DNA of 64,000 nt from Nesterenkonia marinintestina (GTDB lineage Bacteria; Actinomycetota; Actinomycetes; Actinomycetales; Micrococcaceae), in assembly GCF_025420485.1 (NCBI RefSeq), contig NZ_JAOEFD010000012.1, forward strand, positions 1-64,000, read 5' to 3'. Both the position numbers and the translations under genes were made by a program. This document shows positions 1 to 14,213 of this stretch, piece by piece (position 1 is the stretch's first letter; each line of letters begins with the position of its first letter). The notes below the pieces were generated by a model that saw only the letters and a list, made by a program, of their open reading frames with translations, was not told where the DNA came from and did no database searches.

Positions 1-1724
1 CAACGTGCGTTAGTGAGGATCCGGGCCTCGTCCGCGGTTGGTTCGGCTTCGAGCCAGTTGAGTTTGCGGGTGCGTTCGGCCACGTTCATCCCACCATCGA
101 CGTGCTCTGCCCGGCACACCAGTGAAGGTTCCTCGCCAGCGTTGGTGTCGGCGATCTGTTCGGTGATGCGTTCGAACATCGAGGCCGCCCACCGGGATTC
201 TTTAATGTTCGAGGCAAACGCCACTGCCCGCTGCATCGGACGCACCGTCTTACTGCCGTTGCTGAGGCCACGGTGGGATAGCCCGTTCCAGCAGCCGACC
301 ACTTTGGCCACATCTGGGATCCTCAGCGCGCTTTCCTCGTCGGTGAGCAGACCTTGCCAGCGCTTATTGATCGCGGCTTCATCGACTGCTAACACCAACA
401 CCTTGTAATCGGTCAGCAGACCTTTTTCAACAGCTTCTCCGAAGCCCAGCCGGTGAAACTCGGGGCCATAGAGCCGCTGATCATCCATAGAGGCGACCAC
501 CACCGAATTCTCATCGGCCTTCTTCTTAGTGCTCTCATCGAAGACCCTGGGCGTGGCAGTCATATACAACCGTTTCGCCCCGGCAACGAAGGAATCGTCG
601 TGGATCTTGGTGAACGCTGACTCATCTTCACCGGCCACGGTGGCACCGGTGGTGCGGTGGGCCTCATCGCAGATGATCAGATCAAACTCGCCGAACCCGA
701 GCTGCTGGGCCTGGTTGAGCACATCAATTGACTGATACGTCGAGAACACCACCGTCCGGCCCTCATAGCTTTGGGCCAGGCGGCGCCGGTTGACCAACTT
801 ATCCGGATCCGTGGTTGCCGGCACGATCAGCTCAGTAGTGGAAATATCCTCGGCCGTGTTCTTCCCGACCTTCACATCTGAGCAGACCGCCAAGGCCCGG
901 AACGGTTCATCAGCGTCTGCCTTCCACTCCCTCAAGGTCTGGTCCAACAACGCGATAGAGGGCACCATGAACAGCACGTTGCCAGTGGGTGGTGTCTGTT
1001 CCTGCATGATCTGCAGCGACGTATAGGTTTTGCCCGTGCCGCAGGCCATAATCATCTTTCCCCGGTCCGAGACCTCGAACCCGGCAGCGACCTCGGCCAT
1101 GGCTGCACGTTGATACGGGAACGGCGACTTCCCCAGACCCTTATGCCGCACCACCCGATCCGGGGTCTCGATGGCGAACTCCGACCAGGCGATATCAGCC
1201 CGATCCATCTGCGGTAAATCGATGACCTGGACATCGTTGTCCTCAAGAGTCCGCTGAGCCGTGGGCCCAAGCTTCAAAGCAGTATGCGCCAGAATCCGGC
1301 GAGAGAACTCTTTCGGGTGAGCTGCAGAGATGAACGAGTCAATGCCTGCTTTATCAACGGTGGACTCAGGGTCTACAAACTTCGTCTGAATCGCTGTCAG
1401 TTCCCCGGTGAACCGGTCCCTGGCCACCAGATCCACACCGGTATCTACCCGGCCCTCACGTCCGGGATACTCGTTCCACAACCACACATCAGAGAACTCA
1501 CGAGCCCACACCGGATCCACAGTCAGATACGACCGCATCAGCCGTTCAAACTTATCGCCCTGATCCCGTGTGCCATCCGAACCGTGATAATAGGTCTCCA
1601 GCAGGTGCCCCAGCGTGATCTCTTCAGTCCCCATAGAGACATTGTCTAAGACGACGGCCCAAGGGACACCATCGACACCGTCCTGTGTGTCACAAAGGAG
1701 CAAGGCGGCGGATTCGGTTTTCAT
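1..1724 (-). CDS. Nuclease-helicase resembling type ISP restriction-modification enzymes (COG4889), 5' part only
   Basis: The frame is open from the start codon to the window edge, giving the first roughly 574 residues. Residues 90-116 carry an Mrr-like PD-(D/E)XK nuclease site: D98 in GVDLV, then Q113 and K115 in IQTKF. An SF2 helicase core follows, with motif I ACGTGKT (227-233), motif II DEAH (353-356) and motif III TAT (389-391). Nuclease followed by helicase is the layout of single-chain type ISP enzymes such as LlaGI, which then carry an adenine methyltransferase and a target recognition domain. Those parts would lie left of the window, so the type is not proven. A GTG at 1733 in the same frame has a better-placed GAGG than the ATG used here. 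As transposon cargo, a role in phage defence is likely. Confidence 0.8.
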   Translation of the reverse strand, partial: MKTESAALLLCDTQDGVDGVPWAVVLDNVSMGTEEITLGHLLETYYHGSDGTRDQGDKFERLMRSYLTVDPVWAREFSDVWLWNEYPGREGRVDTGVDLVARDRFTGELTAIQTKFVDPESTVDKAGIDSFISAAHPKEFSRRILAHTALKLGPTAQRTLEDNDVQVIDLPQMDRADIAWSEFAIETPDRVVRHKGLGKSPFPYQRAAMAEVAAGFEVSDRGKMIMACGTGKTYTSLQIMQEQTPPTGNVLFMVPSIALLDQTLREWKADADEPFRALAVCSDVKVGKNTAEDISTTELIVPATTDPDKLVNRRRLAQSYEGRTVVFSTYQSIDVLNQAQQLGFGEFDLIICDEAHRTTGATVAGEDESAFTKIHDDSFVAGAKRLYMTATPRVFDESTKKKADENSVVVASMDDQRLYGPEFHRLGFGEAVEKGLLTDYKVLVLAVDEAAINKRWQGLLTDEESALRIPDVAKVVGCWNGLSHRGLSNGSKTVRPMQRAVAFASNIKESRWAASMFERITEQIADTNAGEEPSLVCRAEHVDGGMNVAERTRKLNWLEAEPTADEARILTNAR

Positions 1725-1841
1725 AGCGACCACACCATGAACCTCACGCCCTCAGGAAGGCTGGAGGCACTCTGGAGCTACTGTGAAACGACCTCACCAC
1801 GGCAGCAGTGCAACCGGAAGTCCGCGAGCTATGGTCTTGTA

Positions 1842-2666
1842 ATGAGCAGCTCAGCATCCTCCGACACATCATTGTGGGTTCTGCCGCCCGAGTCGTACGC
1901 CCAGGTTTGGCGCTACATGACCCTCCCGAAATATTTATCCCTGCTTCAAACGGGATCACTGTATTTTGGGCGCCTGGATCTGATGGAAGATGCGTGGGAG
2001 GGCGCGCCTCATATGGGAGGGCTTGAAGCCGAAGTCCGCAACCTCGGGACGGCCCGGGACGATGTTAGAGCCGTTGCACGACAGTCACTGCTCAACTTGG
2101 CAGCGTTTCAACGTCGATCCACGTACGTCAGCTGCTGGCATATGGCAGAAGAGGAGTCCGCCGCGATGTGGTCCTTGTACCAACAGGACAACGCGGGAAT
2201 CGCCATTCAGACTGATTGGCATGCACTCAACAGCTCTCTGGACCCTTGGATTCCTTTCCTGGAGGCTCAGGTTGTTTACGGATCGCATTTTGAAGGCGGC
2301 GGTAACCATTTCAATTTGCCAGCTTCCCTGTGCACGAAACGCCGGAGTTTCGCTCATGAGCGCGAGGCCCGCATCATCTATCTCGACGCACAAAAAGAGT
2401 TCAAAACAGACATGGACTACTTCAAGTATCAGGGAACGAAGATCGCTCGGCCTCGTGACCACGCTCTGGAGGCGCGATTGGCCGAACTTCCATCCGGCAT
2501 TCCAATGAAAGCTGATATAGAGAGGCTCGTTGGACGCGTGGTTTTGGCTCCGTATATGCCTCCCTGGGTAGAGGAGGCTGTTCGCGAGACGACGGCCCGG
2601 TTCGGCTTCGAGTTTCCTGTAGGAAGATCAGCGTTAGATACGGATTTCCCTGGCTGGCGGTCTTAG
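1842..2666 (+). CDS. DUF2971 domain protein
   Basis: The 274-residue product fits the DUF2971 family. It has an N-terminal WRYMTLPKYLSLLQTGSLYF segment, a central YVSCWHM then AAMWSLY then GIAIQT block, and a KRRSFAHEREARII block. The biochemical function of the family is unknown. The ATG at 1842 is preferred because the family-like sequence begins shortly after it; the frame is open back to an ATG at 1737, but those extra 35 residues are not protein-like. The gene is divergent from the restriction-like gene, leaving about 110 bp for two promoters. It sits among transposon cargo, and DUF2971 genes often occur in mobile islands. No membrane segment or signal peptide is visible. Confidence 0.8.
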   Translation: MSSSASSDTSLWVLPPESYAQVWRYMTLPKYLSLLQTGSLYFGRLDLMEDAWEGAPHMGGLEAEVRNLGTARDDVRAVARQSLLNLAAFQRRSTYVSCWHMAEEESAAMWSLYQQDNAGIAIQTDWHALNSSLDPWIPFLEAQVVYGSHFEGGGNHFNLPASLCTKRRSFAHEREARIIYLDAQKEFKTDMDYFKYQGTKIARPRDHALEARLAELPSGIPMKADIERLVGRVVLAPYMPPWVEEAVRETTARFGFEFPVGRSALDTDFPGWRS

Positions 2667-3174
2667 GGCTTCGTCGTCCAGGCTCCGCTGAGGGGGGACC
2701 GCTGAGCTCTGCGTGCCATCCGCTGAGCTAGGAAAGTCATCTCGCTGGGGGACGGTTGCCATGAATACGTCTTTGCCCATGGGACCAGGACTCCAGATAC
2801 AGGTCGCAGCGCAATCTGTTCAATGCGGCCTGACCTGGCCCTTTACAAGGTCGCAGGAAGATCTCCGGTGAAACTGTACGATAATTCATTGCACGATTAC
2901 CCCTAGATGGACTGCATCTGAGCGCAGACAAACGAAACCAAACAGCACTATTTTGCGGATTCAATCTACGTATATTGACCCAGAACGGGCGCTGGCGTTG
3001 CACGAATGAATGCATCATATCTGGAGTCCTGGGGACCGAGCGCAATCGAGTACGTAGCTCCCACTGGCACGTTGAAGCGGCCCTCCGGGTCGAGTTCGAA
3101 GGCGCCGTTCTTCTCTTAGACAGTGGAGCGACTTCAGCCACGGTCGGTGGGGCGGGTCCATGTGTTTGAGACGG
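2667..3174. other. Gene-poor stretch in transposon cargo
   Basis: No convincing gene is visible. Short open frames on both strands (2737-3141 minus, 2975-3169 plus) lack recognisable composition or motifs. The octamer CCGCTGAG occurs three times between 2690 and 2740. Local AT content is high around 2870-2980. The stretch separates two genes that converge on it. Confidence 0.5.
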
Positions 3175-4947
3175 TTAGGTGCGGGGCGTTTCTATTCGAA
3201 CGCGGTGCCCGTCGTCGTTCTTGACCCATAGGAGCCTGCGGTCATCTGATAAGCGAGTGGCGATGTCATCACTCTCCTGGGCACGTTCGAACACAGCATC
3301 TGGGTCCCCGTAGACGTGGAGGATTGGGCCGTTCTCAGTGGGCGGCGGCTTCGTGGCACTGGCTTGGGTGATCATCAGGTTTCCTGCCAGCCGGATGTGG
3401 CTCTCGCTGTACTCACCGGGAAGTTGGAGAACTTTCTCGTAGAAGGATCTGGTGGCGCTTAAGTCGGCTACTTTGATCTCCACGAGGGTCAGATTAGAGG
3501 GTGTCACCGTCTGGACCTCACGGGTGTCGGACGCCCTCGAGAGGGGCTGTCCTCGGCTAGCTGCGGCGGCGTCCGCCTCCAGGTCGATGGTGAGAGTCTG
3601 GCCGTCTTCAGTCGTTGCCACGATACGGCTGACCTGCTTCTTTCTCGACGCCGAAAGGAGGGAGTGGCGCTCGAGGTTGATCGTGCGTCCATCGGGCAGC
3701 ACATCGGTGTTGGCGCTCTGGAAGAGCTCTTCGGACCAACCTTGCAGAGCTTTCCGGTCCACCGGCATGTCTTTGCGAGGTTGAACGGTCGCATCCGTGG
3801 AGAGAAGTTCCGCCCCCAACCACGAGATGTACTGGCTGTCTTGGACGTATTCATCCAATGAAGCCAACCAGTAGGTCCCGTGCACCGTTCCCCAGAGGCT
3901 GCCTGCCATGGAGGCGAGGGCGTCGGTATCGGCGCCGGTGAGGTAAGCGGCCTGAACCAGGCCGCTAGCGGGACTGCTCGCGTATTTGGTTGCCAGGTAG
4001 AGACTGGCCAGAGCACTGACCGTGCCTGCCCCGCTGATCGTGTTGTCGAAGGCACCCAAGACGTTCAGGACGCTGTGGTCATTCTCCGTGCTGCCGTTAT
4101 CGAGGTGGGCTTTGATCGTCTGTAGGCTCGCGTCGATTTCTTCGACCGTTTCTCGCCAGCTGGTGGCGATGTCCGTCCATTCGTGGGAGTACTGATCGGC
4201 TGTGCGCTGGTGATTGAATATCCAGGTGTCGTCGACGTTTTCGAAGAGCACATCGATAGGCCGCCAGCTGGTCTCATCTGCGATGGCATCGATGAGTTCT
4301 CCGTGCTCCAGGGTGGCCGGGTCGTGGTGGGCGTAGCACAGAGCTATCGCGTGGATGAGGGCTCCGAGTATGGCCCGCGGGTGACCGTGGGTCGCGATGC
4401 TATCGCGCACCACTCGCCCGGCGAGGTTCGGGATATCCGCCACCCCACGGGTCTTCAGGACGTGGGGAACGATCCTCGTGGCTGCGCTGTTTCCACCGGC
4501 GCTGAAGTAGCCGGTGGCATGTGTTTTCTTCTTTTTGGTCTTCGCGAGGCTCCAGGGAGGTTTCCCAGCCTGCCAGCTGCGCGCAGCCCGCAGCACAGCA
4601 CCCCCGCCTTCCCGCTGGTAGAGGGTCCACTGCGGCAACTCAACCTCGGTCAACCATGGGTACCAGTCGCCGTCTCTGAGGCAGGCACGGCCGACGGCAA
4701 GCAGCAATTGGGTGTGGTCGCTGTATCCTCCGGCCGAGACTGGCTCCTGGTAGCGGGCAGAACCCTCTCGTCTGCGACGTGTCCAGGACTGGAAACCCAG
4801 TACCCTACTCTCCTGCCGCCTGCGGTTGCCTCTAATGTTTCGGCTTCGGCGTGCCTGGGGCCAGCCCAAAGCATCACCCACAGCAGCTCCCAGCATAGAA
4901 CCGGCAACGTGGTCACCCCGGCCACCAGGAGTCTGGACACCGCCCAT
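3175..4947 (-). CDS. ADP-ribosylglycohydrolase (DraG family) fused to a C-terminal VOC/glyoxalase domain
   Basis: Residues 13-380 follow the DraG/ARH fold. They contain AGSMLGAAVGDALG at the start, the metal-site segment YSDHTQ (75-80), GGNSAATR (151-158), THGHPRAILGAL (186-197) and the second metal segment GADTDALASMAG (338-349). Such enzymes remove ADP-ribose from proteins or nucleic acids using two metal ions. The usual DDT of the first metal site is DHT here, with His78 replacing the second Asp. After a linker (about 385-480), residues 485-590 form a VOC domain that starts LTLVEIKVADLSATRSFYEKV. The pairing is unusual. It sits in transposon cargo near a restriction-like gene, so a role in defence or in reversing a toxin's ADP-ribosylation is possible but unproven. 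The start gives the normal family N-terminus. Confidence 0.8.
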   Translation of the reverse strand: MGGVQTPGGRGDHVAGSMLGAAVGDALGWPQARRSRNIRGNRRRQESRVLGFQSWTRRRREGSARYQEPVSAGGYSDHTQLLLAVGRACLRDGDWYPWLTEVELPQWTLYQREGGGAVLRAARSWQAGKPPWSLAKTKKKKTHATGYFSAGGNSAATRIVPHVLKTRGVADIPNLAGRVVRDSIATHGHPRAILGALIHAIALCYAHHDPATLEHGELIDAIADETSWRPIDVLFENVDDTWIFNHQRTADQYSHEWTDIATSWRETVEEIDASLQTIKAHLDNGSTENDHSVLNVLGAFDNTISGAGTVSALASLYLATKYASSPASGLVQAAYLTGADTDALASMAGSLWGTVHGTYWLASLDEYVQDSQYISWLGAELLSTDATVQPRKDMPVDRKALQGWSEELFQSANTDVLPDGRTINLERHSLLSASRKKQVSRIVATTEDGQTLTIDLEADAAAASRGQPLSRASDTREVQTVTPSNLTLVEIKVADLSATRSFYEKVLQLPGEYSESHIRLAGNLMITQASATKPPPTENGPILHVYGDPDAVFERAQESDDIATRLSDDRRLLWVKNDDGHRVRIETPRT

Positions 4948-5068
4948 CAGCCATTCCCTCTTACAACGTTCTTCACCACTAGATGGTGCCGTCGCCCGAC
5001 GAAGATTCCGCCTCGATGGTGGTGCCTAGCTCTGTTCTGGCTGTGAGGCGGAACGCAGGCCATGACCG

Positions 5069-5323
5069 TCATTGGCCGGTACTGCGGCGGGAGACGATAC
5101 GGGTAATCGTGTTCTCATTGACTCCCCAGTCTTTAGCGAGCCGATACTTCGATAGACCCTCGTCGTAGGAAACCAGTATCCGCTCATCTCGCGCTGCTCG
5201 CAGCGTGAGCAGGTGAGCCTCTGTTTCAGTGATCTGTTGTGCCAGCTGTTCGTTACCCAGACTTGAGGGGATAGTGGTTGGTCCTGTGCTGGGTGTCTCG
5301 TCAGTCAAGGGGGTCTCCTTCAT
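5069..5323 (-). CDS. Small helix-turn-helix protein
   Basis: The product has 84 residues. The C-terminal half looks like a DNA-binding helix-turn-helix: SKYRLAKDWGVNENTITRIV, preceded by a helical segment LLTLRAARDERILVSYDEGL. This pattern resembles small actinobacterial proteins with a resolvase-like or sigma-4-like HTH. The gene follows the tniQ end on the same strand after about 560 bp, and precedes the ADP-ribosylglycohydrolase by 121 bp. It could regulate the cargo or the transposition genes. The start is uncertain, since AAGGAG overlaps codons 2-3 of the ATG and would fit a TTG at 5308 (codon 6). Confidence 0.6.
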   Translation of the reverse strand: MKETPLTDETPSTGPTTIPSSLGNEQLAQQITETEAHLLTLRAARDERILVSYDEGLSKYRLAKDWGVNENTITRIVSRRSTGQ

Positions 5324-5353
5324 GGCCGCAGGCGAGGGCTATTTGTTCATAGC

Positions 5354-5871
5354 CTAGATGTCACCGCCTATGTCTACGACGAAGGCGGGCTTCAGCAAAG
5401 TCACATGACTTGAGAGCTTGTGGTCCTTGGCGAGGTACGCGATTGGTGGCGGAATATACGCCTTCATCTGAGACCTAGATGTTGCTGATCGGTCTGAAAG
5501 GATCATTCTTGGGCTTTCCAGCAAGGGAGTTAGTGAGGCAGACACTAGTTTGCCTGCATTGAGCGACGCTCCGCCCGGCCTGGCTTTACAGGTTGGGACG
5601 AACACGCGCGTCGGCGAGTTCCCTACCCAGTGTCCATTGCCGATGACTGGCACCTCTTTGCTGGTGCCTGACCCAAGACTTTGAAGTCGGCAATGTCGCC
5701 TGAATCCTGGTTCTTTGATACCGCATGAATGATGAATTTGCGCCATTCAGGGGTGTCTGATGCGCCCGGGGCGAGGGCCATCGCCGCATTGAGTTCGTCT
5801 TCAACGGTCCAGTTCAGGGTCTCAAGCTCGCCGGTCGAGGGGTGACGTGAGTCCCGAGATCGGGAGGGCAT
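5354..5871 (-). pseudogene. Small unrecognised gene after tniQ, apparently frameshifted
   Basis: A frame starting 12 bp after the tniQ stop encodes a protein-like stretch of 82 residues with segments such as LNWTVEDELNAAMALAPGAS and EWRKFIIHAVSKNQDSGDIA, stopping at 5623. A second frame overlaps it and continues to 5354 with protein-like sequence, including VIGNGHWVGNSPTRVFVP and AYIPPPIAYLAKDHKL. Shifting back one base near 5650, at the AAAGAGG run, joins them into one product of about 172 residues. No family was recognised. It could be a decayed gene, a sequencing error, or two unrelated small frames. Its position suggests it was part of the transposition operon. Confidence 0.4.
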
Positions 5872-5883
5872 TGCGGTCTCTCT

Positions 5884-7596
5884 TCAGGGTGGGGTCCATG
5901 TTTCAGGCTCGGCGCATTGTTCAGTTAGGGCGCGGTGAATGAGCTGTCTTTTCCAAGTCGAGGGCTCTTCAGGAAGAACGTTTGTCGCCCGGAGGTCTCC
6001 CCAGGCCATGGGGGTGTACCGAGGGCTCGCTTGCGTGAAGTGACACCAGGTCCATAGTCTTTCGGGATCGGAGAAGGAAGCCTTGAGGCTTAATCCCTGT
6101 GCCAGTAGGTCTACTTGAGCGGGGCTGGACAGAGCACGCCGTCGTGACGCGTAGTCAATCGTCGATGGATCATGGGTAAGCCGGTCAGAGGCCCTCAGGA
6201 TTGCTTGGCGAAGTGTCGGCCACCCTGTTTGTTTGCAGAGGCGCTTCCAGGTGCCGGTGATCCTTGCAGCAGCATGCTTAGGTGCTCCCAGCCTCTCGGC
6301 CGCGGAGGCTACGGAGATGCTCCGGCCCACGCAGATAACGGCGATGCTGATCGCGAATTGTGCTCTTTCGTCGTCGGTGAGGTCGAAACCCGGCAGGCCA
6401 AGGGGATACCACAGTTGTGGTACCGCAGAGAATGGTGCGGGCCTTATCTTCCAGTCGAGAGCGTACTTCGGGGTGGGAGTGTTTCGGTGACGAAGTTCAT
6501 GAGGTGCTCGCGGCAAGGACGAGCCGGCGCGGAACGCCAACTGGGTTGTAGGCGGAAGCCGGTTCTGGAGGCTCTGGAGACGAATGGCGTGCAGAAGAGG
6601 CTCCAGAGGGCGTGAGCGAATATTGTGCGCCGGCCCTATCGGCGCTAAACGCCCATGGACTCGTAAGAGGTCGAAGTGATCGGCCATGGCCCCAGCTTCC
6701 TCCAGCGAAGGCTGGTTCAGAACGATGAAAGCACTCTGCGGAGCTCTACCGACCTGCAGTGCAGTTACGGGGAGTCTCTTGCCCCTGGGGGTATGGAGAG
6801 CTTCGTACGTCAGAAGAGTAAGTGCCCGGCTGGCTTCGGCGTTCGTGATCTCTCGTCCGGCCCACTTCTTCGATCCGCCGTTCTCGTGGAACGTCTGGAG
6901 CGCTTCGGTTGCTCGGAGGAGGGTAGTTGTCGCAGGCTCAGCCGAGATTGCTGACAGATTTGTAAAGCAACCGGTTCGGCGACTGCGATCAAGCTGGCTA
7001 GGCTCACCAACATATTCGGTGCAAGTGGCTGGATGTCTATCTCGACGTGCCCAAGCGATGGTGCTGAACGGTCGAGATTCACAACCTGGGCAAATGTCCC
7101 TCAGGACTCGACTGTGCTGAAGGCAGACCAAAGTTAGAGGGTCCCGCCATTCCGGACGCCATATCTGATGTTCGTGGATACATTCAGGACAAAACCTTGA
7201 ACCTTTCAGAAGTGGAAAGGGACGGAAAACGTCGAATCGGTGGAGAACACTCACCGGCGCTCCCATAATTCGCTGTTGGCGAGAAAATGCTTCGGCGCGT
7301 TCTGAGTCGCTTACTCCGGTGCGTTCACTAAGGTCGTTTCGTGGACGTGCCAGTCGCTGATTGACTCCCGTCGGCGAGTAGGAACGAACGTGCATGTTCA
7401 GCTCACGGAACACCCCGGCTGGCGTGACCTCATATCGGTGAGCAAGTCGGGCCCACCAACTGACTAGCGTTTCGTCCTTACGAAGCTCAACGTGTATAGG
7501 CCAGCGGTCCAGATCATGTCCTCCCGGGATCCCCCTCAGCTTGGGGGCGACCGAGTGGGTGGGGTTAGGGGCTGAAGATGCTAGTTTCGGCTGCAT
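5884..7596 (-). CDS. tniQ: TniQ family transposition target-selection protein
   Basis: The 570-residue protein begins like TniQ/TnsD, with WPIHVELRKDETLVSWWARL (32-51). It then has a zinc-binding module with C136/C139 (CPEC), C158/H161 (CLQH) and C169/C172 (CPGC). TniQ-type proteins bind or recognise the target and recruit the TnsC ATPase. It is longer than minimal TniQ proteins (about 300-400 residues) and nearer to TnsD in size, which would suit sequence-specific DNA binding by its C-terminal half; that is an inference. Its start overlaps the tnsC end by 32 bp, so the two are co-transcribed. The insertion point next to clpB may be the site it recognises. Confidence 0.9.
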   Translation of the reverse strand: MQPKLASSAPNPTHSVAPKLRGIPGGHDLDRWPIHVELRKDETLVSWWARLAHRYEVTPAGVFRELNMHVRSYSPTGVNQRLARPRNDLSERTGVSDSERAEAFSRQQRIMGAPVSVLHRFDVFRPFPLLKGSRFCPECIHEHQIWRPEWRDPLTLVCLQHSRVLRDICPGCESRPFSTIAWARRDRHPATCTEYVGEPSQLDRSRRTGCFTNLSAISAEPATTTLLRATEALQTFHENGGSKKWAGREITNAEASRALTLLTYEALHTPRGKRLPVTALQVGRAPQSAFIVLNQPSLEEAGAMADHFDLLRVHGRLAPIGPAHNIRSRPLEPLLHAIRLQSLQNRLPPTTQLAFRAGSSLPRAPHELRHRNTPTPKYALDWKIRPAPFSAVPQLWYPLGLPGFDLTDDERAQFAISIAVICVGRSISVASAAERLGAPKHAAARITGTWKRLCKQTGWPTLRQAILRASDRLTHDPSTIDYASRRRALSSPAQVDLLAQGLSLKASFSDPERLWTWCHFTQASPRYTPMAWGDLRATNVLPEEPSTWKRQLIHRALTEQCAEPETWTPP

Positions 7597-8632
7597 TGTC
7601 GACCGTCACGGCGTTGAGAATTTCGGCATCAATAGTCTCCCTGCCTGATCGAATCGCGAATTGGCATGCGCGGTCCAACAAATTCGTCAAGGATCCAATG
7701 TTTCCTTGAGTTCTGCGGAAGATCTCCTTTGCTTGCTCTACAAGCATGCCGCGCTCCTTGTTGAGGAGAAGGAGATGGTCCTCGAATCGAGCGAGGAGGT
7801 CACACCAGGCTCTCATCCCCGGTCCTGTCGAGACGGTGAATGGGTCTACGGGCACGCGGGTTGCCCTTCGCGATGTTTGAGCGAAAGAGGCATCCTCACC
7901 GTATAACCCTTCGTCAAAGAATTTCTTAGCTTTGAGTTGGACGCCGACGTAGATGAAGGTCGCCGGCATTTCGTTGGCCAGGCCTTTGAGGTGATTACTG
8001 ACCTCCTGACCGCGTCGGTGCTTGAAGTCAACGAAGTGAAGATCATCGATGATGATCAACTTGGTTTGGCAGCTCCTGACACAGTCGACGGCTAGTGAGG
8101 CCAGTCTCGAGGTCGTCGCTCGGTGGGCTCCGGGGTGCCCGTAGAAGCTGAGAATCTTTTGATTGAGACCCTTCAATGTCACGCCGGAGTCGAGCGGGAC
8201 GAAGGCGACGGGTATCCGTTGGTGCCCTTCCTCAGTCTTAAGGCCTGAGCGCCGGAGCGCCCTCCGATGAAAATCGCGGGCATAACGAGTGGCGATGGTC
8301 GTCTTACCTAATGCTGGGGCAGCGTCGATGACCGCTGATCCTCGAAGACGGTCACCGTCTCGATAGCTGGAGGCCATGACCTGGTCGAGAATGCTGAACC
8401 CCCGGACGAGTTGTGCTGTCTTCATCGCTGGAGGGTTGGCGTTCCACACGGCGCGGGAGTCGTTATAATCCTCGAGCTCTTCTTCGGTGAAAGCTCTGAA
8501 TTCTGAAGCGGATACTGGGGGTAGCGGTTGTCGTGGTGCCGACTCAGCAAAAGCGTGCCAGCCACCCTTGGTCGCCAAATTGAAGTTGCGGATGTTGTTG
8601 GATGCAAGCCAATGACCGAACCGGTTAGTCAT
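7565..8632 (-). CDS. tnsC: TnsC/TniB-type AAA+ transposition ATPase
   Basis: The 355-residue product has an AAA+ core. Walker A is DAAPALGKTT (103-112) and Walker B is KLIIIDDLHF (191-200), followed by a helix-rich C-terminus. TnsC-type ATPases assemble on target DNA, link TniQ to the transposase and control insertion. The first glycine of the P-loop is replaced by alanine while GKT is kept. The start overlaps the tnsB stop (ATGA) and the 3' end overlaps tniQ. The N-terminal 80 residues have no recognisable domain and may contact TnsA or TnsB by analogy with Tn7. Confidence 0.9.
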   Translation of the reverse strand: MTNRFGHWLASNNIRNFNLATKGGWHAFAESAPRQPLPPVSASEFRAFTEEELEDYNDSRAVWNANPPAMKTAQLVRGFSILDQVMASSYRDGDRLRGSAVIDAAPALGKTTIATRYARDFHRRALRRSGLKTEEGHQRIPVAFVPLDSGVTLKGLNQKILSFYGHPGAHRATTSRLASLAVDCVRSCQTKLIIIDDLHFVDFKHRRGQEVSNHLKGLANEMPATFIYVGVQLKAKKFFDEGLYGEDASFAQTSRRATRVPVDPFTVSTGPGMRAWCDLLARFEDHLLLLNKERGMLVEQAKEIFRRTQGNIGSLTNLLDRACQFAIRSGRETIDAEILNAVTVDNAAETSIFSP

Positions 8633-10677
8633 TCGTCGAACACTTCTATCGCTCCCTCGGGGTTGGTGATGTGGAAATCGCGAAAGACATCGAGATCAGC
8701 AAAGGGCTCCTCGCGCTGCTTCTTCGCTTTTGCCGCGTTGAAGTCCAGTACCGCAGGGGTCGATGCTGGATTGTGGTCGTTGATAGTTGCGTCGATTGGG
8801 AGGGCCGTTGCTGATCTCTTGGCGCTAAGGCGTCGGGCCAAAGACTTCTCCCGGCGAGACATCACTGTTTCCTGGCTCCAGTCGCGGAGAAGATCGTGAA
8901 TAGCCTGGCCGGGGTCGACGTGTCGGTCTTCTCGAAGAGCAATTCTCTTGGTGTACTCAGCTGCTTCCTTGGAGAAGGGCCCTTCCAGCCCGGCTGCGTG
9001 CTCCCACTCCAAGGGCTCGAAGGACCCCGTTTCAAGGTCTTGGAACCATACGCGGCGGACATCGTGGGCGTCTGTAAAGATCGGCCACTTCGCTCGGTGG
9101 CGACCCGTGTATGGCGACTGGGTGTTTCGGTGCATGTTCAACGTTGGCCCGTCATAGCGGCGCCCGTTGATTTCCACGCCGTAGTGCTGGATGGTGCGCC
9201 ACTCCACTTCCAGGAAAGAGAATGCTAGGTCGTCTGAGGCAGGTAGCCTGAGCCCTCCACACTTGGCCAGTCCGATTTCGAACATCTCCGCAGGTGAGAA
9301 CGAAGCCCCCGGGACTTCTGGAACGCAGAGACCGCTGTGTTTGGTTCGGTGGTAGATCTGGCCCACCCACTCTCGAATTATCTGCTCCAGCTCGCTGAGG
9401 TAGTAGAACGCCTGGCTTTCCACGTTCTGGCCCCGGTTGTAGACGTCCGGTCCTTTATAGCCAGGAAGATGCTGGAGGCAACCTTGGCGCAGGGTCCTGA
9501 AAAACCTTTCAATTGTTGGTTTGTCGGTGGGCTTATAAGGGATGGAGGGTTGAACAGAAATTCCTAAGCGGGCACAGGATGAGATGACGTGGTCAGAGAG
9601 GTAGATCTTGCCGCGATCGACCATGATCGACTCGGGCAGGCACGCCGGCAAGCCTCCAGTGGGCATCTCGGATGTATCTTCGATAGTTTCTGGGCCCACC
9701 AGAACGTTTTGTGGAACTCCATGAAAAGGCCAGGCCCCATCATCGTCCTTGCGCGGCATTGGAGTAACTGCCTGATAAAGGACATTGGCCACGTCTGCTG
9801 AATTTGTTGACACGGGAGAGAGTCGCAGTCCCAAGATGCACCGTGTGAAAAGGTCCTGAGCCACCGTCAGCTCAACTGGTACCCAGCGCAACGTCACCGG
9901 TTCCATCGCGAAAACATCCAGAGGCGTGGTATCCAGGATGACGTGCTCCCCAGGCCGAGTAGCGCTGAGCCGGCCATATGGTCCGTCGGGGCGCTGTGCC
10001 ACGGATCTTCGCTGCTTGGCGCTGCCGAAAGCGTGTCTGCCTTTCGAGAGCTCTTTGAGCCGCCGGTACTGCGTTGCACGGGACGGGATGAGAACTTCAC
10101 CGGCGCCGTACTCATCTTCCAGGCGTTGCTTCGTCTGTTGCAGCACGACATCTGCAGTGGGAGTCGATGCCTGAACGTAGCAATTTAACACGGCTCGGCA
10201 AGCCGCTTCCCAGCGTTCGTCAACCCCTGAACTTCTTCGACCGACAGTCCTGCTATCGGCGAGGGCTGCCGGCCCGCCTTCAATGTACGACCGTATCCAG
10301 CGGCGGAGCGTTCGCCCCGAGACGCCTTGTTCCTGCGCACACTGCTGGATCCACTCGTCATCGGTGCCACTATGAGATTTTGGAGGTGCCTGGGCGAGAC
10401 GCACCGCCAGGGAGCGCTCTTCGACTTTGGCGCGCTGGCTCTCGGGCAGATTCTTCAGCAGCACATCCACAGGTGCGGGCGAACCTGGGTTCTTCTCACG
10501 CTGATCCAGTTCGTCCAGAACCTTGCATGAGGCCACCAAATAGGAGGTTTGAACCCGCTTGAAGGTCTCGCCAGAGGACAGCAGCGTGCTCCCCGCCCCC
10601 AGTTCAAGGACCGTCCAGACTCCTCCATCTAGCCAGACGTTGCAGCTGACTCGAAGCTCGACCTGGTTAGAGTTCAC
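8629..10677 (-). CDS. tnsB: TnsB-type DDE transposase (Mu/rve family)
   Basis: The protein has 682 residues. An N-terminal region (about 80-210) holds helix-turn-helix segments, including VSGRTLRRWIRSYIEGG. An integrase-fold catalytic core carries D249 (VILDTTPLDVF), D354 (IMVDRGKIYLSDH) and E390 (KPTDKPTIERFF); 35 residues separate D354 and E390, the classic DD(35)E spacing. A Mu-type beta-barrel and C-terminal tail follow, the tail presumably contacting TnsC. TnsB binds the end repeats and joins the 3' ends to target DNA. The size is close to Tn7 TnsB (702 residues). It begins 5 bp after the tnsA stop and overlaps tnsC, so one transcript is likely. Confidence 0.95.
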   Translation of the reverse strand: MNSNQVELRVSCNVWLDGGVWTVLELGAGSTLLSSGETFKRVQTSYLVASCKVLDELDQREKNPGSPAPVDVLLKNLPESQRAKVEERSLAVRLAQAPPKSHSGTDDEWIQQCAQEQGVSGRTLRRWIRSYIEGGPAALADSRTVGRRSSGVDERWEAACRAVLNCYVQASTPTADVVLQQTKQRLEDEYGAGEVLIPSRATQYRRLKELSKGRHAFGSAKQRRSVAQRPDGPYGRLSATRPGEHVILDTTPLDVFAMEPVTLRWVPVELTVAQDLFTRCILGLRLSPVSTNSADVANVLYQAVTPMPRKDDDGAWPFHGVPQNVLVGPETIEDTSEMPTGGLPACLPESIMVDRGKIYLSDHVISSCARLGISVQPSIPYKPTDKPTIERFFRTLRQGCLQHLPGYKGPDVYNRGQNVESQAFYYLSELEQIIREWVGQIYHRTKHSGLCVPEVPGASFSPAEMFEIGLAKCGGLRLPASDDLAFSFLEVEWRTIQHYGVEINGRRYDGPTLNMHRNTQSPYTGRHRAKWPIFTDAHDVRRVWFQDLETGSFEPLEWEHAAGLEGPFSKEAAEYTKRIALREDRHVDPGQAIHDLLRDWSQETVMSRREKSLARRLSAKRSATALPIDATINDHNPASTPAVLDFNAAKAKKQREEPFADLDVFRDFHITNPEGAIEVFDE

Positions 10678-10682
10678 AGCGA

Positions 10683-11360
10683 TTACCTCACGAGACTGTT
10701 TCGGTTAAATGGCACATCAAGTTCGACTGGGTGCTCACCTGACCACACTGCTTGGAGAGCATCATGGAGGGACTCCACCGTCGTGTCCCCGGGAGATGGT
10801 GGTGATTCATGCCGCAGTGGTGCATTTGGGTACCTACGGCGCGCGAAGGCGGAAAATTTGATGTTTTCCAGAATGATGGGGTCCCCGCCGTGCCACACCT
10901 CGTAACCCCACCCGCGTGCCGAGCACAGGGCTTGAGTCCACGCGAAGACTGCGGCAGCTTTAGGGTGCCGCGCGAACTCTCGTGGTTTGACGTCCACTAC
11001 GGTCAGCGTTCCGTCCGTATGGGTGAGGAGGAAGTCTGGCACGTGGCGGCGTGACGCCTCTCCATCGTTTCCCGAGAGTCGCATCGGTTGTGCGGAGATC
11101 CATGACACTGTCGGGTCGAAATCTGCGAACCACAAGCGATCCATTTCCAGTCGACTTTCGTATGGAACGTGGTCACCTGTCGTTGCAGACCAAAAGAGAC
11201 CGGAATAATGCCGCTGGCGAGCATGGGCATGGAACTTCCGCACTGGAAGAGCAGTGGAGAGTCGCCCTTCGTCGACCGCGCCCAGAGTTGTCGAGATCTC
11301 TTCCCCATCTGCGGTCACATACCGGAGGTCTGCTCTGAGGTGCGCGGTGGCGGCGCTCAT
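10683..11360 (-). CDS. tnsA: TnsA-type endonuclease subunit of heteromeric transposase
   Basis: The ATG at 11360 gives 225 residues. Residues with restriction-endonuclease-fold spacing are present: E68 in PYESRLE, D109 in HVPDFLL and K125 in VVDVKPRE, matching the catalytic E-D-K set of Tn7 TnsA. TnsA cuts the 5' strands at the transposon ends, which allows cut-and-paste movement in place of replicative insertion. A GTG at 11405 in the same frame would extend the protein, but that stretch lies inside the end repeats, so the ATG is preferred. It is the first gene of the leftward operon, and its promoter must lie within the transposon end. Confidence 0.9.
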   Translation of the reverse strand: MSAATAHLRADLRYVTADGEEISTTLGAVDEGRLSTALPVRKFHAHARQRHYSGLFWSATTGDHVPYESRLEMDRLWFADFDPTVSWISAQPMRLSGNDGEASRRHVPDFLLTHTDGTLTVVDVKPREFARHPKAAAVFAWTQALCSARGWGYEVWHGGDPIILENIKFSAFARRRYPNAPLRHESPPSPGDTTVESLHDALQAVWSGEHPVELDVPFNRNSLVR

Positions 11361-11376
11361 AGTTCCAGTATGTGAC

Positions 11377-11439
11377 CTATGACACGTCTGTGAGACTAAT
11401 GACACGCCTATGACAAGTTCTTGAGACTATGACAAGTTC
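11377..11439. repeat. Transposon end repeats, probable TnsB binding sites
   Basis: Read inward on the minus strand, the box TGTCAT occurs four times (11434-11429, 11415-11410, 11404-11399 and 11384-11379). Two copies are embedded in an identical 13-bp sequence, GAACTTGTCATAG (11439-11427 and 11420-11408). Spacings are 19, 11 and 20 bp. Multiple overlapping boxes just inside one end match the organisation of TnsB sites in the Tn7 right end. They overlap the region where the tnsA promoter must lie, so TnsB binding could autoregulate the operon. Confidence 0.75.
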
Positions 11440-11507
11440 GATGAGATCCGACAGGCGACACTGGGGATGGAGACCGTCACCACCGGAATAGACGGGCGCG
11501 ATCCAAA

Positions 11508-11528
11508 GTTGAGCATGAATGACTCAAG
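11508..11528 (+). promoter_or_regulatory. HAIR element (HspR operator) of clpB
   Basis: GTTGAGC, seven bases, then ACTCAAG matches the HspR-associated inverted repeat, whose consensus is CTTGAGT-N7-ACTCAAG. The right arm is perfect and the left arm has two mismatches. HspR represses clpB and dnaK operons in actinobacteria and releases them on heat stress. The element lies 49 bp before the clpB start and about 47 bp inside the chromosome from the transposon end. Confidence 0.8.
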
Positions 11529-11576: not shown

Positions 11577-14213
11577 ATGGACGTCCAGCTCACCACCAAG
11601 TCGCAGGAGGCGATGTCCGCGGCCTCCGCCCACGCGAACACGACGGGCAGCCCGAGGATCGAGCCCGCCCACCTGCTCAAGGCGCTGATGGACCAGCGCG
11701 ACTCCGTCGCCGTCGCCCTGCTCAAGGCCGCCGGCGCCGACGCCGAGGCCGTCTCCACCCGCGCGTCCGCACTGATCCGGCAGCTTCCCAAGACATCAGG
11801 CTCCAGCGTCTCCCAGCCCCAGCTCGCGCAGCCGACGCTCGCCGCGCTGCGCACCGCACAGGCCGAGGCCGAAGAGTTCGGCGACGAGTACATCTCCACC
11901 GAACACGTCCTGCTCGGCCTCTCCGCCGACAACGGCCCAGTCGGCCGCGCCCTGGCCGACAACGGCGCCTCCCACGACGCCCTGAAGGCCGAACTTCCCG
12001 GCATCCGTGGTGACAAGAAGGTCACCAGCCCGGACCCGGAGAACAGCTTCCAGGCCCTGGAGAAGTACGGCACCGACCTCACCGAGGTGGCCCGTTCGGG
12101 CAAGCTGGACCCCATCATCGGCCGCGACTCCGAGGTGCGCCGCGTCGTCCAGGTCCTCTCCCGCCGCACCAAGAACAACCCGGTGCTCATCGGTGAGCCC
12201 GGCGTCGGCAAGACCGCCGTCGTCGAGGGCCTCGCCCAGCGCATCGTCGCCGGCGACGTCCCCGAGTCCCTGCGCAATCGGACACTGATCTCCCTCGACC
12301 TCGGCGCCATGATCGCCGGGGCGAAGTACCGCGGCGAGTTCGAGGAGCGGCTGAAGTCCGTGCTCGACGAGATCAAGGGATCCGAGGGTGAGATCATCAC
12401 CTTCATCGATGAGATCCACACCGTCGTCGGCGCGGGCGCCTCAGAGGGCTCCATGGATGCGGGCAACATGCTCAAGCCCATGCTCGCCCGCGGTGAGCTG
12501 CGTCTGATCGGGGCCACCACCCTGGACGAGTACCGCGAGAACGTCGAGACCGACGCGGCCCTGGAGCGCCGCTTCCAGCAGGTCTGGGTCGGCGAGCCCT
12601 CGGTCGAGGACACCGTGGCCATCCTGCGCGGTATCAAGGAGCGTTACGAGGCCCACCACAAGGTGGCCATCTCCGACGGCGCACTGGTCGCCGCCGCCAC
12701 CCTCTCCGACCGCTACATCACCGACCGGCAGCTGCCCGACAAGGCCATCGACCTCATCGACGAGGCCGCCTCCCGGCTGCGCATGGAGATCGACTCCGCG
12801 CCGGTGGAGATCGACGAGCTGCGCCGTCAGGTCGACCGACTGACCATGCAGGAGATGGCGCTCTCCGGCGAAGCCGACGCCGGCTCTCAGGAGCGGCTCG
12901 AGACGCTGCGGGCCGACCTCGCCGACAAGAAGGAGTCGCTGGCCGCGCTCACCGCACGGTGGGAGGCCGAGAAGGGCGAGCTCAACCGTGCCGGTGACCT
13001 CCGCGTGCAGATCGACGAGCTGCGCTCGGCCGCCGAGAAGGCACAGCGCGAGGGTGACCTCGGGGAGGCCGCCCGGCTGCTCTACGGCGAGATCCCGCAG
13101 GTCGAGCGGCAGCTCGCAGAGGTCGAAGAGGAGGAGGACGCCGAGCGTGAGGCCGGAGAGCCCAAGATGGTCTCCGACGAGGTCGACGACGACGGCATCG
13201 CCGAGGTCATCTCCGCCTGGACCGGGATCCCCGCCGGACGCATGCTGCAGGGAGAGACCGAGAAGCTGCTCCAGATGGAGACGCTCATCGGCTCACGGCT
13301 GATCGGTCAGGACAAGGCTGTCACCGCAGTGGCCGACGCGGTCCGCCGGGCGCGCACCGGCGTCGCCGACCCGGACCGGCCCACCGGTTCGTTCCTCTTC
13401 CTGGGTCCGACCGGTGTCGGCAAGACCGAGCTGGCGAAGTCTCTGGCGGAGTTCCTCTTCGACGACGAGCGCTCGATGGTCCGCGTCGACATGTCCGAGT
13501 ACTCCGAGAAGCACTCCGTGGCCCGGCTGGTGGGCGCCCCGCCCGGCTACGTGGGCCACGAGGAGGGCGGTCAGCTCACCGAGGCTGTGCGGCGCCGCCC
13601 CTACTCGGTGGTGCTGCTCGACGAGGTGGAGAAGGCCCACCCGGAGGTGTTCGACATCCTGCTGCAGGTCCTCGACGACGGCCGCCTGACCGACGGGCAG
13701 GGCCGGACCGTGGACTTCCGCAACGTGGTGCTCATCCTCACCTCCAACCTCGGTTCCCAGTTCCTGGTGGACCAGACCCTGGACCAGCAGGCCAAGCACA
13801 AGGCCGTGATGGATACGGTGCACGCCTCCTTCAAGCCCGAGTTCCTCAACCGGCTCGACGACGTCGTGATGTTCGACCCGCTGTCCATGGAGCAGCTCGG
13901 GTCGATCGTGGACCTGCAGATCGACTCGCTGCAGCGCCGCCTGGCCGCCCGGCGTCTGACCCTGGAGGTCTCCGACGCCGCCCGCGACTGGCTGGCGTTC
14001 ACCGGGTACGACCCGGCCTTCGGCGCCCGTCCGCTGCGCCGTCTGGTCCAGCGCGAGATCGGGGACCAGCTGGCCAAGGAGCTCCTCGCCGGCACCGTGG
14101 AGGACGGGGACACCGTGCTCGTCGACCGTGAGGAGCCCCGCCTCGAACCCGGTGCGGAGGGAGACGACCTCACCGCCCCGAGCCATGGGTTGACGGTGTC
14201 CCGCGCGGAGTGA
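11577..14213 (+). CDS. clpB: ATP-dependent protein disaggregase ClpB
   Basis: The protein has 878 residues, normal for ClpB. It has an N-terminal Clp repeat domain (1-145), a first AAA+ module with Walker A GEPGVGKT (206-213), a coiled-coil middle domain (about 405-530, rich in E, R and L), and a second AAA+ module with Walker A GPTGVGKT (610-617). ClpB works with DnaK to extract polypeptides from aggregates in the cytoplasm. The start is well supported by GGAAAGGA upstream. A HAIR operator in the leader indicates HspR control. The transposon ends just upstream, so any more distal promoter elements of clpB have been displaced. Confidence 0.97.

Follow-up and report, generated by a model that had tools for sequence, protein, structure and literature searches.

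The transposon Tn7 has TGT...ACA ends and produces 5-bp target duplications, as do the elements described below. With TnsA, TnsB, TnsC and the TniQ-domain selector TnsD, it inserts at attTn7 (glmS) in a fixed orientation, choosing a safe site close to the sequence that is recognised; the stretch read by TnsD is the final 36 bp of the glmS coding region (PMC2918618). In the Tn7 literature drawn on here, the attachment sites mentioned by name are conserved genes or tRNA genes (glmS, parE, comM and tRNAs). The CRISPR-associated transposons (CAST) of types I-B2 and I-D carry a CRISPR system and a TnsD that homes to a tRNA gene, with CAST I-D inserting about 30-33 nt from this homing site (PMC10293859), and their TnsA and TnsB are fused (PMC11406308). 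Benler et al. (2021) delineated an Actinobacteria-dominated clade of Tn7-like elements without an experimentally characterised member (PMC8649781). Here, we analysed a Tn7-like transposon located upstream of the chaperone gene clpB in a 64,000-nucleotide stretch of DNA from Nesterenkonia marinintestina (hereafter, the window: bases 1-64000 of contig C4, genome G000). Coordinates are window positions; other G numbers denote genomes of relatives, C numbers contigs, and L numbers fetched loci.

The element has the hallmarks of the Tn7-like group: a TnsA-like endonuclease adjoining a DDE transposase TnsB, a TnsC/TniB AAA+ regulator and a TniQ-domain protein in one operon, TGT...ACA ends with repeated sites, a 5-bp target duplication, and a fixed site used in a fixed orientation. 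As in the TnsD pathway of Tn7, a TniQ-domain protein accompanies TnsA, TnsB and TnsC, and the insertion lies at a safe site near the conserved sequence. Unlike glmS, however, the block that is conserved here does not code for protein: it is a promoter/operator that precedes a gene. Unlike in the CAST I-B2 and I-D systems, the address is not a tRNA gene, and tnsA and tnsB are separate genes. Comparison of the sequences makes it probable that a TniQ/TnsD-type protein reads a composite SigH/HspR promoter as the attachment site of an ordinary Tn7-like transposon; the address appears to be a regulatory promoter/operator and not a gene. The present elements and the clade of Benler et al. possibly belong to the same broad clade; the passages on that clade describe no attachment site of the present kind (PMC8649781). 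No Tn7-like element at clpB, dnaK or a heat-shock promoter was found among the titles and abstract beginnings listed in our search of the open-licence literature, and one may be described in a supplementary table or a subscription paper; the passages drawn on from PMC10293859, PMC8649781 and PMC11406308 do not mention such an address either.

The transposon upstream of clpB

On the minus strand of the window, Pfam matches follow each other in the order TnsA, Mu-C/rve-type TnsB, TniB/TnsC and TniQ, in agreement with the complete tnsA-tnsB-tnsC-tniQ operon of the first-pass annotation. The gene tnsA (10683..11405, with a more likely start at 11360) encodes a TnsA-like endonuclease subunit that additionally matches the NCBIfam model TnsA_like_Actin, tnsB (8629..10677) the DDE transposase, and tnsC (7565..8632) the TniB/AAA+ regulator; tniQ (5884..7596), assigned by Pfam and by profile comparisons, encodes a long TnsD-like protein of 570 aa, the proposed target selector. 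The identity of tnsB and tnsC is further backed by solved TnsB and TnsC chains. The D, D and E of the window TnsB line up with the D, D and E of the solved TnsB, which we take to be the catalytic residues; the earlier claim of intact catalytic residues is upheld, for TnsB by this alignment and for TnsA, for which no solved relative was found, by motif alone.

The right end of the element (11361..11453, minus strand, the position 11361 being set by the likely tnsA start at 11360) contains AACTTGTCAT-type repeats and terminates at a TGT...ACA-type tip at 11453 (...GATCCGACA; minus strand 5'-TGTCGGATCTCATCGAACTTGTCAT). The repeat-rich end previously noticed outside tnsA was also recovered: there are two exact copies of AACTTGTCATAG and one copy with two mismatches, all inside the right end, compared to a mean of 0.39 and a maximum of 2 in shuffled window controls. 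These repeats are putative TnsB binding sites. The tip is followed by the 5-bp target duplication GGCGA (11454..11458) and then, on the plus strand, by the proposed attachment site, which consists of two parts, the SigH-type clpB promoter (11485..11510: GGAATA at 11485-11490, 17 bp, GTT at 11508-11510) and the HspR operator (HAIR) that overlaps the -10 box (11507..11528). The intact host gene clpB (11577..14213, plus strand) matches TIGR03346 above the cut-off. The distance from the tip to the -35 box is 31 bp, and the distance to HAIR is 54 bp. Thus, the first-pass annotation correctly placed a Tn7-like element upstream of clpB, with the chromosome resuming shortly before HAIR and clpB; however, its extent (1..11460) and the gap of about 47 bp have to be revised, because the right tip is at 11453, 54 bp from HAIR, and the left end lies off the contig (C4 begins within a cargo gene). 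The suggestion that the right end spares the HspR operator holds, with both the SigH-type promoter and HAIR intact.

The target site and its geometry

A clpB match was found in 29 of the 30 Nesterenkonia genomes (all except G026), and a right end, counted when it had one of the two recognised tip types, is located upstream of clpB in 12 of these 29 (G000, G001, G005, G009, G010, G011, G013, G016, G017, G020, G022 and G027). This may be an underestimate, given that G019 has pieces of tnsA and left ends near clpB, with neither sought tip type at the promoter. Conversely, a CCTACA found at 66 bp in G007 was considered as a right end and judged to be a chance match. Within the genus, a tniQ of the window type is present only in G000, G016 and G022 (52% and 33% identity to the window TniQ for the latter two); several of the other genomes with right ends have incomplete tns genes, tns genes interrupted by a contig end, or none detected within about 20 kb. 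The G016 element spans 29.3 kb between its duplicated ends. A different kind of TniQ was observed on a separate 6.4-kb contig of a genome of the same genus (L122, G015:C39).

To extend the search, a profile of three genus TniQs was run against 395 genomes of the family, and six genomes scored at E <= 1e-20. The only full-length TniQ relative outside Nesterenkonia was that of G262, another genus of Micrococcaceae, whose element adjoins clpB with the same geometry. After addition of G262 to the profile, 396 genomes of the order were searched at the same threshold; there were 13 matching genomes, including G000 itself, and the flanks of the other 12 were fetched. For nine of these, in five other families, tnsA, tnsB, tnsC and tniQ are detectable (in pieces in G441) beside a SigH/HAIR promoter, so that elements at the composite promoter span six actinobacterial families. 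The gene behind the promoter is HSP70/DnaK in all nine readable targets. The remaining three were left out of the readable targets: G607 is a 3-kb contig without the target, the TniQ of G707 is 86% identical to that of G437 but is accompanied by no more than a scrap of tnsC, and G091 has an N-terminal match only, with no composite in its 19 kb. The G707 locus (L183, tniQ at 1870-3664, likewise lacking a SigH/HAIR composite in the 19 kb fetched) is a decayed element. In the plasmid collection, no relative of TniQ reached a query coverage of 80%.

Altogether, 22 junctions were available for measurement. The distance from the right end to GGAA is 31 bp at 10 junctions, 32 bp at eight, and 25, 33, 34 and 35 bp at one each, and the tnsA end faces the promoter wherever tnsA is present. 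The sequence GGAAYR-N17-GTT is found at all 22 junctions; it corresponds to the SigH consensus established for M. tuberculosis, a species in which an HspR site and the clpB promoter overlap (PMC4803200). Between the right end and the start codon there are 101-214 bp at the 19 junctions measured, namely, 101-154 bp for clpB (11 of 13 junctions) and 178-214 bp for dnaK (eight of nine). Anchored on GGAA, conservation averages 1.74 bits in the -35 box and 1.39 bits in the HAIR block, compared to 0.33 bits upstream and 0.27 bits downstream. It should be noted that the dnaK junctions were picked by a pattern that required GGAA and GTTGAG at about the observed spacing; the right half of HAIR was not part of that pattern. 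The clpB HAIRs of the genus were located by HAIR alone, and GGAATA lies 23 bp upstream in all 28 of them; therefore, the spacing at these sites was not selected for.

These measurements bear directly on the possibility that the clpB coding sequence is what TniQ reads, in the way that the end of glmS is read by TnsD of Tn7. Although the neighbour is clpB in Nesterenkonia and in G262, the start-codon distance varies by about 50 bp within the clpB hosts, and nine relatives reside upstream of dnaK, a gene unrelated to clpB; a near-fixed distance is kept only to the promoter, and the coding-sequence explanation is effectively refuted. The proposal of the first-pass annotation that the conserved clpB promoter serves as the address is supported by the TniQ relatives and right ends found at the same place in the genus and in another genus. 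The outcome named beforehand as refuting that annotation, TniQ homologues beside unrelated genes, was indeed encountered in the nine dnaK elements. Tabulation of the genes flanking the TniQ homologues removes clpB as the sole address and retains the promoter geometry, which widens the earlier idea and does not overturn it: because the dnaK elements share this geometry, the address would be the promoter, not clpB.

Sites that are not used

We further examined where right ends do not occur, using as controls the HAIRs of 30 Nesterenkonia loci that happened to be fetched. A right-end tip is located at 54-56 bp from 6 of 11 composite HAIRs compared to 0 of 26 non-composite readings, the latter being readings and not genomes, as some represent the opposite strand of a palindromic HAIR and others belong to genes other than dnaK. 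The hexamer CC[TC]ACA is found elsewhere within 250 bp upstream in three of the 26 (at 143, 149 and 175 bp), which was taken as chance. HAIR alone was accordingly rejected as the address, since none of the non-composite readings has a tip at the expected distance. A SigH promoter and HAIR in any arrangement were rejected as well: the Nesterenkonia dnaK upstream regions shown contain both, with HAIR about 22 bp further down, and have no right end. Thus, fetched HAIRs that do not overlap the promoter are not used. A TniQ-independent pattern search of the 395 family genomes matched 11 (10 Nesterenkonia and G262), whereas the reversed pattern matched one.

Elements with related TnsB and other TniQs served as a further comparison. 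The Tn7-like elements of Streptomyces and Mycobacterium (L130-L148) and that of G191 have related TnsB and TnsC (in G191, 45% and 54% identical to those of the window), with TniQ similar mainly in its N-terminal part. Insertion at a HAIR site was not seen in the fetched DNA of G191, G091 or the other loci of the Streptomyces/Mycobacterium set, the strict HAIR pattern used for them being one that misses an imperfect HAIR such as that of G262; for the 21 loci of this set (one of them from G022), the fetched DNA contains neither a clpB match nor a strict HAIR, and in some of them it ends short of the target side. The G191 element sits elsewhere than at a heat-shock promoter. Near its right end (L156, about 10717) are a cluster of DnaA-box-like TTATCCACA repeats, at a distance of about 29 bp, and a citrate-synthase-like gene, at 335 bp (both named by eye); the cluster is perhaps another non-coding address. 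Citrate synthase was first assumed to be the G191 target and then dropped, the right end being 335 bp from the stop of that gene, and the designation G191_gltA in the tree and profile runs is only a label.

TniQ as the candidate selector

A long-type TniQ is present wherever the tns operon is readable throughout. The profile of the TniQ C-terminal half gives 69-144 bits on eight dnaK-type TniQs that were not in the profile, compared to at most 51 bits on other TniQs. With the N-terminal profile, G191 outscores G651, whereas the C-terminal profile places eight of the nine dnaK types above all TniQs from outside the heat-shock site. This is suggestive of a C-terminal half that distinguishes elements at the heat-shock site from other elements more clearly than the N-terminal half. 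In a quick tree, the clpB-associated TniQ of G262 nests among the dnaK types, which implies at least two changes of the neighbour gene.

If the landmark were a protein residing on the promoter, namely, HspR on HAIR or SigH-RNA polymerase, with TniQ or TnsC docking on that protein and not on DNA, a fixed spacing would likewise be expected, and the best-conserved positions are indeed those read by SigH and HspR (GGAA and GTTGAG being partly built into the site pattern). We consider such docking unlikely, because the window TniQ is long and direct binding to the attachment site is the mode of action proposed for long TnsD-type proteins (PMC10293859), the target is tracked by the TniQ C-terminal half, and the HAIR sites of Nesterenkonia dnaK have no right end.

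Several observations weigh against recognition of the composite promoter by TniQ or reduce the force of the evidence for it. Four of the 22 junctions (G010, G020, G022 and G728) deviate from 31-32 bp. The full conservation of GGAA and GTTGAG and their 23-bp spacing at the dnaK junctions are partly built in by the pattern that demanded them; the spacing between the -35 box and HAIR is invariant at the used sites, so that the separate contributions of the two are inseparable; and the control of these promoters by SigH and HspR in these hosts is a putative assignment by motif. Because it was this TniQ profile itself that retrieved the dnaK-type TniQs, their C-terminal scores are not independent of the selection; the TniQ of G441, which is split over two frames, reaches only 17 bits. 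The heat-shock-site TniQs group together with moderate support (SH-like approximate likelihood-ratio test (SH-aLRT) value of 83, no bootstrap), and the nearest row to G262 in the tree is the long, split G441. Finally, 14 of the 21 elements in which duplications were sought have no left end with a matching duplication, many contigs and fetched stretches ending early, and the left-end candidate of G437 has a non-matching 5 bp.

Left ends, duplications and tandem insertions

Exact 5-bp duplications were detected in the other seven of the 21 elements (G000, G016, G010, G005, G730, G541 and G651). The elements may be active in transposition. Left ends in the genus were sought by a pattern derived from left ends, which gave five places in G000, one of them the right end of the window. 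The best candidate, C32:3018-3041 (tip base 3041), is flanked on the outside by GGCGA, identical to window positions 11454-11458. Beyond this left end is a type III polyketide synthase-like gene (named by eye), which has homologues upstream of clpB in two relatives, at about 18 kb in G003 and about 27 kb in G013. A TGT with a GGCGA flank at window position 4170 was rejected as the left end, as its tip is mismatched (8 of 14 letters differ). A right and a left end also lie back to back, with 4 bp between them, at C18:1595-1646 (L115), an unplaced tandem junction, and a further left end was found at C9:32229; thus, the interval from C32 to C4 may contain more than one element. Another small unit was observed in G005 (L066, C8, 2194-4379), a 2.2-kb element with both ends, an exact duplication and no tns match inside, the cadmium-transporter (Cad) gene of which is 88% identical to a gene inside the left end on C32; it is perhaps a cargo unit moved in trans.

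In G005, G010 and G730 and on C18, right ends directly adjoin left ends with a gap of 4 to 7 bp, indicating that elements stack in tandem. Such stacking is what one might see if insertion were loose and only the copies in a harmless spot persisted, and the site does spare both promoter and gene. However, a distance of 31-32 bp at 18 of the 22 junctions, upstream of two genes and in six families, is a much narrower range than viability would call for, and survivorship of this kind is very improbable.

Cargo genes

The left part of the window contains three cargo genes: one for the N-terminal part of a type IIG restriction enzyme-methyltransferase, truncated by the contig end (3..1733, minus strand), one for a PDC-S31-like candidate defence protein (1737..2666, plus strand), and one for an ADP-ribosylglycohydrolase-like protein recognised by Pfam (3175..4947, minus strand). 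A perfect 15-bp inverted repeat (2785-2799 and 3018-3032, 218 nt apart) lies between two of the cargo genes. Contig C15 of the same genome also bears an Mrr_cat_2 gene, and its DNA shares 70% identity with bases 1-200 of the window, which points to a related restriction gene elsewhere in the genome.

The cargo is also where an additional selector, either a guide RNA or an extra protein encoded in the left part of the elements, would be expected if the site were not set by TniQ. In the window element, part of this left region is on other contigs. No search for CRISPR was made; the window cargo scanned contains no cas-like protein, save that the restriction enzyme has weak matches to DinG-type helicases. 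Yet, the long-type TniQ accompanies every readable tns operon and its C-terminal half is common to elements with the same target, and an extra selector is highly unlikely.

Proposed mechanism and implications

Under recognition of the composite promoter by TniQ, the protein would bind the -35 GGAAYR together with, 17 bp on, the -10 GTT overlapped by HAIR, and TnsC and then the TnsA/TnsB transposase would be recruited to the bound site. By cut-and-paste transposition, TnsA and TnsB would place the element one Tn7-like step (31-32 bp) upstream of the -35 box, duplicating 5 bp of the target and orienting the right (tnsA) end toward the promoter, while the promoter, the operator and the chaperone gene would stay intact. 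The neighbour would then be whichever chaperone gene bears the composite, that is, clpB in Nesterenkonia and one other genus of Micrococcaceae, and dnaK in five other families. A stronger version, which we regard as rather unlikely, is that homing senses the state of the switch, with TniQ competing with HspR or SigH-RNA polymerase at the -35/-10/HAIR block and being licensed only in a given stress state. If true, TniQ would functionally mimic promoter-binding proteins and couple transposition to the proteotoxic stress of the host.

The transposon is of the standard Tn7-like kind, but its address looks new: a composite SigH/HspR promoter common to two chaperone genes. In six families, diverse elements seem to home to a regulatory module that different genes have in common, which represents a testable new class of address. 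These elements provide a natural set of TniQ proteins for the study of the evolution of target specificity, and are possible site-specific integration tools for actinobacteria. They also raise the question of whether transposition is tied to the heat-shock response.

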